37,194 bases of DNA from an uncultured Trueperaceae bacterium (GTDB lineage Bacteria > Deinococcota > Deinococci > Deinococcales > Trueperaceae), in the NCBI GenBank assembly GCA_913057165.1, contig CAJXNS010000013.1:1-37194 (forward strand), given 5' to 3'. Under the pieces are notes generated by a model. It saw only the letters and a list, made by a program, of their open reading frames with translations. It was not told where the DNA came from and did no database searches. Below, one piece after another: positions 6,713-32,855 of the stretch. The position numbers and the translations under genes are program-made. The stretch's first letter is position 1; every line of letters starts with the position of its first letter.

Positions 6713-7966
6713 GCCTGCGGCCGAAAGATTCGCATCCTCAGGGTGGGTGTCCGTCGGGAATCGTCTCAACGACCGCAACACCACCAGCAGGGCGAGGACA
6801 ATGAATGCCGCCCCCGCAAAAAAGGGCATGCCGGGCAGTTCGGCCACCGCGCCGGGGCCGGAGAAGGCTCCGAAAAGACTTCCCGAGATGAGCGGAGCCA
6901 CAATGGCAGTCAGCGAGAGTAACGACGTGATGGCGCCCTGAACCCGTCCCTGGTCGGATGAGGGGACGGAGCCTGCGATCAACCCTTGAATGGCGGGACC
7001 GCTGACGTTACCGAGGGCGGTGACGGCGATGACCAGATAGAACCATGTGCCCACCGACGTGAGGCCGTACGCCAGGAATCCTGCCGCATAAACGGTGAGG
7101 CCCACAACCACCGTGCGCCGCTCGCCAATGCGGGCCACCATGGGCCGAACGAGGAGCCCTTGCACGATCGCGGCGGTGATCCCTACGACGGCGAGCGCCA
7201 AGCCGTTTTCCGAGGGTCCCCATGCGAAGCGGTAGTCGGTGTAGAGCACAAAGACGGTCTCCAGGCCGCGTTGCGCGAGGCCGAACAGCATGAAGCCAGC
7301 CGCCAAGCCGGCGACCAGTGGGTATGCCTTCAGGCCAGCCAGCGAGCGTAACGGGTCGATGCGTTTCCAGTCGAAGGGGGCGCGCCGCTCAGGTGGCAGC
7401 GATTCGGGCAGCACCACGAGTCCGTACACCCAGCCGGCGGCGGCAACAGCGGCACTGGCAAGGAACGGCACGCGCAGCCCAAGATCACCGAGCAGGCCAC
7501 CGATCGCAGGCCCGAAAATGAAGCCGAGGCCGAAGGCAACGCCGACGAACCCGAAGTTTCGCGCGCGGGTTTCTTGACTGGAAACGTCGGCGATGTAGGC
7601 GTTGACGGTGGTGATGGTGGCTCCGGTAATGCCTGCGAGCGCACGGCCCACGACCAACCATGCGAGCGTCGGTGACCAGGCGAGGATCAGGTAGCTGAGG
7701 GAGAAGCCGGCTAAGGCCACCAAAATGACGGTGCGGCGTCCAAACCGGTCTGACAACGCCCCGAGCAGGGGCGCGAAGAGGAACTGCATGAGTGCGTAGA
7801 GGGCGGCGATGGCACTGTAGGCGAACGCGGCGTCGCTCGGTCCGCCGGGCAGGAAGCCATCGACCAGTTGCGGAAGGACCGGAATGATAATGCCGATCCC
7901 AAGGATGTCGAGAAACAACACAACCAGTACGAACGGAACGCCGGCTTGCCGCTTGTTGTGGGTCAT
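6710..7966 (-). CDS. MFS drug exporter of the TetA/Bcr type
   Basis: A 418-residue major facilitator protein with about 12 hydrophobic spans. TM1 carries the [14 protein letters not shown] pattern of TetA(A/C)-class transporters; the loop 2-3 motif A appears as [14 protein letters not shown], and motif C as [12 protein letters not shown]. By family it is a proton-driven efflux pump, but its drug range cannot be told from sequence, and environmental TetA-like proteins often do not confer tetracycline resistance. ATG 7966 is preceded by GAGAGG 12 bases upstream and, about 40 bases upstream, by TACCCT. The open frame extends far upstream across the divergent methyltransferase gene; that extension is rejected. 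Confidence 0.9.
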
Positions 7967-29470: not shown

Positions 29471-29546
<76 letters not shown>

Positions 29547-29551
29547 CGCTA

Positions 29552-29626
29552 GGCCCCTTCGACTAGCGGTTAGGTCACCACCCTTTCAAGGTGGCGGCAC
29601 GAGTTCGAATCTCGTAGGGGTCACCA
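29552..29626 (+). tRNA. tRNA-Glu (anticodon UUC)
   Basis: A 75-base tRNA including encoded CCA, five bases after tRNA-Lys. The acceptor stem GGCCCCT pairs with AGGGGTC with one G-U pair; the anticodon loop CTTTCAA gives UUC; the T loop is GTTCGAAT. It is cotranscribed with tRNA-Lys and followed by a terminator. Confidence 0.97.
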
Positions 29627-29629
29627 AGA

Positions 29630-29660
29630 ACCGGGAGGCGTTCGCGCCTCCCGGTCTCTT
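29630..29660 (+). terminator. Intrinsic terminator after the tRNA genes
   Basis: An 11-bp perfect stem (ACCGGGAGGCG and its complement) closes a TTCG tetraloop, 29630-29655, followed by CTCTTTAT. It lies three bases after the tRNA-Glu CCA. The U-tract is short but the stem is strong. Confidence 0.85.
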
Positions 29661-29685: not shown

Positions 29686-29728
29686 TTTCGAAAGCCACCA
29701 GGGTCTCAAACGTTGACAAACTTTCGAA
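29686..29728. repeat. Two TTTCGAA direct/palindromic repeats around the operon promoter
   Basis: TTTCGAAA at 29686-29693 and TTTCGAA at 29722-29728 lie 36 bases apart. The second is inside the promoter spacer and the first just upstream of the -35. Each is near-palindromic, so a dimeric regulator bound to both could control the promoter. Confidence 0.4.
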
Positions 29729-29741
29729 TATAAGGAATACT
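29713..29741 (+). promoter_or_regulatory. Near-consensus sigma-A promoter of the SHMT-like/aconitase-like operon
   Basis: TTGACA (29713-29718), a 17-base spacer, and AATACT (29736-29741). With the rRNA promoter this is the only clear TTGACA in the window. It gives a leader of about 45 bases, and GGAGGA (29785-29790) stands four bases before the ATG, so unlike many neighbours this gene is both leadered and well supplied for ribosome binding. Confidence 0.75.
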
Positions 29742-29794: not shown

Positions 29795-31036
29795 ATGACT
29801 GCGAACCCTGCACCGTCCACCGCCGCCGACCGTCTGGCACGCATCTCGACCGCCATCAGCGACCACGAGTCGTACCGCGACAGCTGCATCGGCTTGGTCC
29901 CAACCGAAAACCGGATGAGTCCGCGCGCACGTGCCGCCATGAACAGCGACCTGGCGCACCGCTACCTATTCCAAAACCCGCAATGGCGTTACGTGGGCGG
30001 TAAGCACCTCGCCGTTGTCGAAGAAACCGCGAAAGAACTCGCCCGCGAACTGTTCGATGCCAAGCACGTCAACGTCCGGCCGCTCTCTGGCGAGAACTGC
30101 ACCAACATCGTGATCCATGCCGTGGTTCCCAAAGGCGGCAACTTCTACCACCTCGCGATGGAAGACGGCGGGCACTTCGCCGCTGCCAGCGTTGCCGACC
30201 GGCTGACCGACAACCGCTTCTTGCTCCCCTTCGACCGGGAGCGCGCCACCATCGACGTGGCCGCCTGCGCCGAGATGTTTGCAAGCCACCCGCCGGACGT
30301 CATCTACCTGGACGCGTCTATGACCACCCAACCCCACCCACTGCAAGAACTGCGCGCCCTGGCAGGCGATGACACCGTGATCGTGTACGACGCGTCGCAA
30401 ACGTTAGGCCTCATTGCCGGTGGCCGGTTCCAAGATCCCCTGCGGGAAGGGGCCGACATCCTGTCGGGCAGCACCCACAAGTCACTCCCCGGACCGCAAA
30501 AAGGCATGATCCTCACCAACCGTGACGACCTGATCGAAGCGGTTGAACGCACGATCTTCCCCGGCCACGTCTCGAACTTCCAGGTGCACCACGTCGCAGC
30601 GCTGGCGGTGACCTTGGCTGAAACGCTTGAGTTCGGACGTGAGTATGCCGACCAGATCATTCGTAACGCCCGCGCCTTGGCTGCAGAACTCCGCAACCTT
30701 GGGCTGGCCGTTCAAACCGGTGGCGGCGAAACGGAAACCCACCAGGTATGGCTGGACGTCACCGCGCTGGCCACCCCCGATGAAGCCGTTGAGCGCCTGC
30801 ACGACGCGAACATCATCGCGAACGTCAACCTGATTCCGACCATGCAAAGCAAAGGCCTACGCCTCGGGGTACCCGAGGTCACCCGTCTCGGTATGACCGA
30901 GGACGACATGCGCGCCATCGCCCGGTTCATGCACGACGCACTCGCCCACGTTCGCCCCATTGAGCACGTCCGCGCGGATGCGGCGCGTCTCGCCAGCGCA
31001 CACACCGAGGTGCGTTACTGCTTCCCAGAGGCGTGA
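29795..31036 (+). CDS. Serine hydroxymethyltransferase-like PLP enzyme with altered active site
   Basis: A 413-residue fold-type I PLP enzyme that aligns along its whole length with glycine/serine hydroxymethyltransferase. Kept: the Schiff-base lysine in STHKSLPGP (K229), D199 under the PLP ring, the ENRMSP segment, and the substrate-carboxylate arginine in GLRLGVP (R356). Changed compared with E. coli GlyA: the Glu of YAEGYP (E57) is F59, the Tyr of RYYGG (Y65) is V67, H203 is Q202 and R235 is Q. The folate contacts and proton-transfer residues are therefore gone. I infer an aldolase, transaldolase or related reaction on an alpha-amino acid, not folate-dependent serine synthesis. It is coupled to the next gene by a GTGA overlap. 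Confidence 0.85.
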   Translation: MTANPAPSTAADRLARISTAISDHESYRDSCIGLVPTENRMSPRARAAMNSDLAHRYLFQNPQWRYVGGKHLAVVEETAKELARELFDAKHVNVRPLSGENCTNIVIHAVVPKGGNFYHLAMEDGGHFAAASVADRLTDNRFLLPFDRERATIDVAACAEMFASHPPDVIYLDASMTTQPHPLQELRALAGDDTVIVYDASQTLGLIAGGRFQDPLREGADILSGSTHKSLPGPQKGMILTNRDDLIEAVERTIFPGHVSNFQVHHVAALAVTLAETLEFGREYADQIIRNARALAAELRNLGLAVQTGGGETETHQVWLDVTALATPDEAVERLHDANIIANVNLIPTMQSKGLRLGVPEVTRLGMTEDDMRAIARFMHDALAHVRPIEHVRADAARLASAHTEVRYCFPEA

Positions 31037-32739
31037 GCACACCCCGCATCGAGCAGATTCTCGGTGCACCGGCAGGCGACGAGGTCCGGCTTAGGCCGGA
31101 CTTGGTCGTTACCGACGACTGGACCACCCCTTCCCTGCTGCCGTACCTGGATGCGCTTGGGACCCACACGTCCAAAGTGCCAACCGTCCTGGTGCACGAT
31201 CACACCTGGGAGGAGGCCGCCTACGACGGGGCTGACGCCAGCAAGGCAGCCGCCCTGAAAGCCACCCGCGACCGCTTCACCGAGCGTTTTGGCGCCACCC
31301 TAATCGAAGGTCAAGGCATCCAACATCATGTCCTGCCGGAACTCGGCCTGGTGAAGCCCGGCTCGGTGGTGCTCGGGAACGACTCGCACACGCCCACGCT
31401 TGGCGCCGCGGGCGCGGTCGCGTTTGCCTCCCAGCCGGTGGGGGTGGCCTTGGCCATGCACACGGGCGAGACCGTGATGCGCGTCCCATCCACCTTCCGT
31501 ATTCGCGTCGTGGGGCAATTGCATCCTGACGTCACCCTGCGCGATGCGGCCCTCACGCTGCTTGATTCCCTCACCGGTGATGGGGGCGTCCCGCTCGCCG
31601 CTGGGGCGTGCTTGGAGTTCAGCGGCGAAGCCGTGGCGGACCTCTCACGCGAGCAGCGCAGCGTGCTGGCGAACATCGCGCCAGAAGCGGTCGCAGCAAC
31701 CAGCCTGTTCGCCAACGGTGACGACACCCACTTGAATGCGGACGTTGAGCTTGACCTTGGCACGGTGCAACCACGCGTGGCGGCGCACCCAAACCCGCGG
31801 CGCTCGGTTGCCCTCAAGCCCGGCCCAACGGAAACGATCGACCGCGTGTTCATCGGGACCTGTTCCGGTGGCACGCTTGATGAGATCAACGCGTTTGCAG
31901 CAGCGCTTTCAGGCAAGGTTGCCGTCCCCACGCAGGTGACGCCGGCGACGCATGCCGTAGCAGACGCCCTTGAGGCTTCCGGTGTGCTCGCGCAGCTCGG
32001 CGCGGCAGGCGTCCAGGTGACACCTCCTGGCTGCGGGGCCTGCTTCGGCTTCGGTATTGAACGCCTGAAGCCGGGCGAGGTGGCGGTGACCACCGGCAAC
32101 CGCAACACCCCAGGGCGGATGGGGTCACCCGATGCGCGCATCCACTTGGCTGGCGGCCGGACGGCGGCCCAGGCTGCCATGCAAGGTCGCCTGCCGAAAC
32201 CCGAGGTTGCGACCGCGTCGCATCCAGAACTTCGTATGGATGTTCCAAAACGCGGCAACCTCGCCCACGTGTTCGGGACGGTCACCACCGACGACCTGAC
32301 GCCATCACACGTGCCTGGCGTAGGATCCAGCAACGACCGCACACGCGACGTGCTGATGGGCCTGCTGTTTCACTACGTGAATCTGCGACCAGACCCCGAG
32401 GCGCTCGCGGGTCGCCTGCTGGTCGCCGATCATGCGTTTGGGATGGGCAGCAACCGCGCAAGTTCGGTCTTGGCTCTCCTTGAGGCCGGCGTCACCGCTG
32501 TGTTGGCGCGCAGTTTTTCGCCGCTCTACCGTGCCGGGGCACGCGATTCAGGCCTACCGACCGTGGTGGTTGACGATGCAGTCCACGACGCCCTACGGAA
32601 CGCCACGCATGCCGAACTCAACCTCGACGCCGGCACACTGGTCGTAGATGGCGTGACGTTTGAGGTACCCGCCGAAAGCGAGCACGAGCGTCAGGTGCGG
32701 CTGCACGGTGGAGCCCTGGCCATGCACGCCGCCTCGTGA
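31033..32739 (+). CDS. Single-chain aconitase / 3-isopropylmalate dehydratase-like hydro-lyase
   Basis: A 568-residue protein joining a LeuC-like large part (about 1-400) to a LeuD-like swivel domain (about 405-530), which in leucine synthesis are separate. The 4Fe-4S ligands are in place: C277 (FIGTCSGGT), C334 and C337 (PPGCGACFG). GNDSHTPTLGAAG (115-127) and GNRNTPGR (355-362) are further family blocks. In the swivel domain the usual GSSREH motif reads GSNRASS (472-478), so Arg is kept while Glu and His are lost. An iron-sulfur (de)hydratase acting on a hydroxy di- or tricarboxylate is likely; the substrate is unknown. Start: GTG overlapping the upstream stop. Confidence 0.87.
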   Translation: MSTPRIEQILGAPAGDEVRLRPDLVVTDDWTTPSLLPYLDALGTHTSKVPTVLVHDHTWEEAAYDGADASKAAALKATRDRFTERFGATLIEGQGIQHHVLPELGLVKPGSVVLGNDSHTPTLGAAGAVAFASQPVGVALAMHTGETVMRVPSTFRIRVVGQLHPDVTLRDAALTLLDSLTGDGGVPLAAGACLEFSGEAVADLSREQRSVLANIAPEAVAATSLFANGDDTHLNADVELDLGTVQPRVAAHPNPRRSVALKPGPTETIDRVFIGTCSGGTLDEINAFAAALSGKVAVPTQVTPATHAVADALEASGVLAQLGAAGVQVTPPGCGACFGFGIERLKPGEVAVTTGNRNTPGRMGSPDARIHLAGGRTAAQAAMQGRLPKPEVATASHPELRMDVPKRGNLAHVFGTVTTDDLTPSHVPGVGSSNDRTRDVLMGLLFHYVNLRPDPEALAGRLLVADHAFGMGSNRASSVLALLEAGVTAVLARSFSPLYRAGARDSGLPTVVVDDAVHDALRNATHAELNLDAGTLVVDGVTFEVPAESEHERQVRLHGGALAMHAAS

Positions 32740-32780: not shown

Positions 32781-32855
32781 GGGCGATTAGCTCAGCGGGA
32801 GAGCGGCCGCCTTACAAGCGGTAGGTCGGCGGTTCGAATCCGTCATCGCCCACCA
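32781..32855 (+). tRNA. tRNA-Val (anticodon UAC)
   Basis: A 75-base tRNA including encoded CCA. Acceptor GGGCGAT/ATCGCCC, anticodon loop CTTACAA (UAC), T loop GTTCGAAT; all stems pair. The ATG of a small ORF follows its CCA after six bases, and no terminator lies between. Confidence 0.97.

Follow-up and report, generated by a model that had tools for sequence, protein, structure and literature searches.

A conserved two-gene operon of Trueperaceae pairs a predicted threonine-transaldolase-like PLP enzyme with a single-chain aconitase-family enzyme

Two adjacent genes of an uncultured Trueperaceae bacterium raise the question of what a PLP enzyme and an aconitase-like enzyme could be doing together in one operon. 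The window analysed here, the whole stretch of 37,194 nucleotides, belongs to a genome of 1.78 Mb in 106 contigs that is 95% complete. ORF A runs on the forward strand from an ATG at 29795 to a TGA ending at 31036 (413 aa), and ORF B on the same strand from a GTG at 31033 to a TGA ending at 32739 (568 aa). The stop codon of A and the start codon of B overlap in the four bases GTGA (31033-31036, forward strand), just as the original prediction had stated. The same four-base overlap (GTGA or ATGA) is seen at every A-B junction that can be read (nine operons), and therefore it is not due to chance.

Concerning transcription, a common promoter had also been claimed, and a sigma-70-like candidate (TTGACA-17-AATACT, 29713-29741, forward strand, 10 of 12 consensus matches) is indeed predicted upstream of A. 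The consensus scan gave three promoter-like sites near the operon against 0.4 expected, and a GGAGG ribosome site lies directly 5' of the A start. The predicted promoter is placed between ORF A and a strong predicted intrinsic terminator (29630-29655, forward strand; stem of 11 pairs, nine of them G-C, with a T-rich tail), which closes the unit of tRNA-Lys and tRNA-Glu (29471-29626, forward strand, ARAGORN) and parts the operon from these upstream tRNAs. At the other end, tRNA-Val (32781-32855, forward strand, ARAGORN) starts 41 bases 3' of ORF B. The GC content of the operon (65%) agrees with that of the window (63%).

In three other genomes (G026, G028, and G032) a -10 motif is located 6-11 bases 5' of the A start codon, and a conserved ACTTATGATACGTTCG was found with that motif directly upstream of A in loci L026, L028, and L035. 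The A transcripts of those three genomes are likely leaderless, unlike the window with its leadered promoter and ribosome site; the leaderless arrangement has been described as common in Deinococcota (PMC12340547). The search for riboswitch control of the pair found none. A cyclic di-GMP-II riboswitch (63.4 bits) is present at 7038-7121 of locus L028 (G032, contig C196), 5' of a small exported-protein gene (7170-7751), and it faces away from the A-B operon.

Regarding the first enzyme, A matches the Pfam SHMT family (157 bits) and reaches 300.5 bits against a curated NCBIfam SHMT cut-off of 335. Its top matches are the SHMT of M. jannaschii and the transaldolase ObiH, the former (4UQV, 315 bits by profile) being the best single match both in sequence and in structure. 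A was aligned with true SHMTs, ObiH, OrfA, and transaldolase-like proteins of Streptomyces plasmids. In this alignment A keeps the catalytic Glu38, Tyr57, the PLP-stacking His127, Asp199 (bound to the PLP nitrogen), the PLP lysine Lys229, and the carboxylate-binding Arg356, and it carries the HQ motif (His316-Gln317) and a tryptophan in the mobile loop. The earlier statement that A lacks the classical GlyA residues was thus wrong for the lysine, the glutamate, the histidine, the aspartate, and the arginine, but right for two other features. The first is the SHMT folate insertion before Arg356 (alignment positions 336-370), missing in the six A proteins compared. The second is the histidine of the DxxH motif, which is Gln202 (DASQ) in nine of nine A proteins and histidine in all the other proteins compared.

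L-threonine transaldolases are described by catalytic His, Asp, Lys, and Arg residues, by two loops that correspond to the folate-binding regions of SHMT, and by HQ and loop aromatic motifs (PMC10495429, PMC8072733). The catalytic His131, Asp204, Lys234, and Arg366 of ObiH are matched in A by His127, Asp199, Lys229, and Arg356, and the folate loop 2 is missing in ObiH as it is in A. However, His207 of ObiH, which takes part in its active-site hydrogen-bond network, is not kept, Gln202 standing in its place. This substitution could mean an altered chemistry, the histidine being a PLP contact in SHMT and a member of that network in ObiH. The HQ pair is not decisive by itself because M. jannaschii SHMT has it too.

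The phylogenetic tree placed A with OrfA, ObiH, and a transaldolase-like protein of a S. cattleya plasmid, apart from the SHMTs including that of M. jannaschii (support 100/98), while the inner order of the transaldolase side is uncertain and ObiH, OrfA, and the S. cattleya protein have long branches. A therefore groups with the L-threonine transaldolases (ObiH/ObaG, LipK, FTase, and OrfA), sharing with them the missing folate loop, the PLP residues, HQ, and the loop tryptophan; it differs from them in DASQ, in a short loop 1, in lying outside biosynthetic clusters, and in its aconitase-family partner. From archaeal-type SHMT it is separated by the lack of the folate/pterin insertion before the substrate-binding arginine and by the tree split. 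Judging from its sequence, A is a fold-type I PLP enzyme of the folate-independent L-threonine-transaldolase side of the SHMT fold and not a folate-dependent SHMT, so that the former label of SHMT-fold enzyme holds for the fold and can be refined. The predicted structure has moderate quality (pLDDT 78), with active-site loops below 50, and consequently no pocket can be read from it. The nearest annotated relatives of A outside Trueperaceae are OrfA, encoded in the S. clavuligerus alanylclavam cluster, and genes belonging to NRPS clusters. OrfA was suspected to be a transaldolase by Scott et al. (PMC5490192). A phmmer search beside the transaldolases of Streptomyces plasmid clusters found no B-like gene.

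The second enzyme matches Pfam Aconitase with 205 bits and, weakly, Aconitase_C with 23 bits. Residues 1-390 resemble the LeuC/HacA families and the last 150 the LeuD/HacB families, so both parts of the LeuC-like/LeuD-like fusion foreseen in the original prediction were recovered along one chain of 568 residues. Such a fusion is by itself not new in the superfamily. B stays under every curated NCBIfam cut-off for IPM isomerase and homoaconitase (254 vs 385, 240 vs 410, and 171 vs 550 bits), and its predicted structure (pLDDT 85, pTM 0.88) matches aconitase and the subunits of archaeal homoaconitase and archaeal IPM isomerase. The cluster cysteines Cys277, Cys334, and Cys337 and the base Ser473, features of the aconitase superfamily apart from AcnX, are kept, and so are Asp56-His57, Asp117-Ser118-His119, Glu218, Asn356-Arg357, Arg362, and Arg475, residues with roles known in part from pig aconitase. 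The roles of the catalytic residues in the aconitase superfamily have been described (PMC8184944).

B thus agrees with HacAB and LeuCD in domains, cluster cysteines, and catalytic residues, and differs from them in having both parts in one chain and in its substrate-facing motifs. In fact, the GSSRE motif, highly conserved in aconitases and in the small subunits of IPM isomerases (PMC7308503), has become GSNRA (472-476) in all B proteins, which is the changed swivel motif that had been pointed out. Furthermore, the substrate recognition loop is replaced and TC(S/A)GG stands for CTN. When B was placed in a tree beside LeuC, HacA, and others, it came out as a clade of its own with a long stem (about 2 changes per site). 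B, a predicted single-chain Fe-S hydro-lyase made of a LeuC-like and a LeuD-like part, is set apart by its changed substrate motif. Neither leuA/leuB nor lysine genes are found beside A-B in the operons with flanks read.

Profile searches of 111 Deinococcota genomes detected A in 10 and B in 11, with 10 genomes common to both, and neither gene in any of the 72 genomes of other families. The eleventh B begins at base 9 of its contig, which explains the lack of A as a gene cut off by the contig end, and the pair is accordingly counted in 11 of the 39 Trueperaceae genomes. This co-occurrence (Fisher p 2e-13, uncorrected for kinship), together with the adjacency of A and B wherever they are paired, gives weight to the proposal that both products act together. 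Two A peptides searched against about 85,000 species genomes matched loci of Trueperaceae/Deinococcota only, a search that variants without those peptides would escape. With dN/dS values of 0.24-0.35, A and B evolve under purifying selection. The long open frames that resembled an A-B fusion in relatives were rejected as chance read-through in GC-rich DNA.

The genes flanking A-B vary from genus to genus, which indicates that the pair itself is the unit. In the genus of the window, A-B lies between tRNA-Glu and tRNA-Val in G000 and G002, whereas the site is empty in the sister genomes G003 and G004, which carry the same three tRNAs but have tRNA-Glu and tRNA-Val only 127 and 279 bases apart. 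The tRNA-Lys/tRNA-Glu order at the left border is the same in G002, G003, and G004. The filled and empty sites imply that A-B was gained or lost as a unit, and the pair is a mobile-looking two-gene cassette of Trueperaceae.

These results reveal a conserved functional unit built from two known superfamilies, and A and B almost certainly work in a single short pathway of metabolism that has not been described. No description of the pair or the operon was found in the open-licence literature searched. The family side of A, the kept catalytic residues of both enzymes, their strict pairing, and the separate housekeeping copies are supported by the sequences; we infer that B acts on the product of A, that the acceptor is carboxylated, and the direction of the module. 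The interpretation that we favour, with somewhat better than even confidence, is a self-contained accessory metabolic module in which B, its pocket remodelled, acts on the product of A, whose acceptor is carboxylated. The idea of making or breaking a carbon-carbon bond and then using a hydro-lyase fits both enzyme families. B would be a [4Fe-4S] hydro-lyase that takes off or shifts the hydroxyl of the A product. Since B keeps three arginines that hold the substrate carboxylates in aconitase, the acceptor of A is most likely carboxylated. It could be glyoxylate or another 2-oxo acid, and the substrate of B would be a dicarboxylate. A would then make a 3-hydroxyaspartate-like intermediate; dehydration would turn it into an enamine, and the enamine would break down by hydrolysis into ammonia and a 2-oxo acid. 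To our knowledge, the known transaldolases use aldehydes and not 2-oxo acids as acceptors, which counts against this choice of acceptor. The favoured reading is further weakened by Gln202 of A, by the moderate A model, by M. jannaschii SHMT rather than ObiH being the best single match of A, and by the lack of any transporter, regulator, or riboswitch linked to the pair.

The abstract logic is that of the beta-hydroxyaspartate cycle, in which the aldolase BhcC joins glycine to a 2-oxo acid and the dehydratase BhcB removes water and ammonia. At both steps, however, these enzymes belong to protein families other than those of A and B, and glyoxylate is only a proposed acceptor in the case of A-B. 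A more specific version, which we consider doubtful, is a CoA-free way of building chains. The PLP transaldolase would take a glycyl unit, supplied by threonine or glycine, and attach it to a 2-oxo acid; its dedicated partner of the aconitase family would then dehydrate the amino-hydroxy diacid, giving ammonia and a longer 2-oxo acid. If true, the module would open a new way to 2-oxo acids, and the aconitase superfamily would gain an activity new to it, with an amino-hydroxy acid as substrate.

The activities listed for that superfamily comprise aconitase, 2-methylcitrate dehydratase, homoaconitase, IPM isomerase, and the two AcnX dehydratases, and the favoured module, if true, would add another one. 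It would also join two enzyme superfamilies not known as partners, and A would be a natural source, outside antibiotic clusters, of transaldolase-type enzymes, for which there is demand as biocatalysts. As the pair consists of two stand-alone genes, it can be tested directly by co-expression.

The module could also run in the catabolic direction, which is unlikely but is the best placed of the alternatives. Here B would hydrate or isomerise an unsaturated or hydroxylated amino acid taken up by the cell, and A would split it by a retro-aldol reaction to glycine and an aldehyde or 2-oxo acid. The model is the methylisocitrate/dimethylmalate routes, whose lyases act after aconitase-family partners; as in A-B, an aconitase-family enzyme and a carbon-carbon bond lyase share one operon, but that lyase belongs to the PEP mutase/isocitrate lyase family and is not a PLP enzyme. 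The accessory, patchy, and site-specific presence of A-B suits catabolism, and a near LeuC/LeuD-like plasmid relative of B belongs to what is likely a catabolic operon, next to a gene of the isocitrate lyase/PEP mutase family. Nevertheless, the flanks examined show neither a transporter nor a regulator linked to the pair, and those closest non-Trueperaceae relatives of A that can be annotated are mostly in biosynthetic clusters. Positions 4944-8781 of L115, a Roseomonas plasmid locus, hold a LeuC/LeuD-like pair with a gene of the isocitrate lyase/PEP mutase family and one for an iron alcohol dehydrogenase, possibly a dimethylmalate-like catabolic operon.

Those same biosynthetic relatives of A, in the S. 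clavuligerus alanylclavam and NRPS clusters, and the patchy distribution of the pair would suit a specialised-metabolite route. Modelled on the transaldolases of antibiotic clusters, A and B would yield an uncommon amino acid of the dehydro or keto type, serving as a signal, an antimetabolite, or a building block. This is improbable, given that NRPS, ligase, export, or resistance genes are linked to the pair in no genome examined.

Even less probable is a lysine bypass, where A would join glycine to 2-oxoglutarate and B would dehydrate the product to 2-oxoadipate, replacing homocitrate synthase and homoaconitase in the alpha-aminoadipate pathway. Homoaconitase and IPM isomerase are the families nearest to B, and homocitrate synthase with HacA is present in 10 of 39 Trueperaceae but in none of the 11 with A-B (p 0.02, uncorrected for kinship). 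Moreover, LysX is above its cut-off in all A-B genomes, and the LysW-X-Y-Z-J-K operon is present in six of them, all those whose LysX region was read. However, the well-assembled G003, G010, and G019 have neither A-B nor homocitrate synthase and keep LysX and the operon as well, so the operon needs no source of 2-oxoadipate. G009, in addition, has A-B together with a true DapA. After the survey of homocitrate synthase, LysX, LysA, and DapA over the 39 Trueperaceae genomes, a bypass via 2-oxoadipate was left unsupported. The LysW-X-Y-Z-J-K operon occurs without homocitrate synthase or homoaconitase in L060-L069 (for example L063, 5033-10200, in G000, contig C18), and it probably serves ornithine/arginine synthesis in these Trueperaceae. 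Many Trueperaceae with this operon are also without a DapA over the cut-off.

The genome of the window has its own GlyA (616 bits on the SHMT model), LeuC, LeuD, and LeuB in a single cluster, and AcnA at a contig end; LeuC, LeuB, and AcnA pass their curated cut-offs and LeuD passes one of two models. Canonical glyA, leuCD, and acn genes are therefore all present elsewhere, in agreement with the view that neither A nor B is the housekeeping enzyme. A lack of other copies, which the original prediction had named as part of what would speak against it, is not observed. The least credible reading is that of an additional SHMT (A) lying next to an additional IPM isomerase or aconitase (B) by chance: both fall within those superfamilies and M. 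jannaschii SHMT is the top structural match of A, but besides these true counterparts A has no folate loop, B has its GSNRA motif and long stem, and the two co-occur without exception. A second SHMT-like gene of G011 was considered as an intermediate and rejected, as its contig has 36.5% GC and looks foreign. This contig (L103, G011, contig C112) carries a distant SHMT-like gene and is likely contamination of the G011 MAG, given its low GC in an otherwise GC-rich family. In the window itself, the contig end (1-396, minus strand) holds a 16S rRNA gene of which only the 5' part is present (Rfam RF00177, 332 bits).
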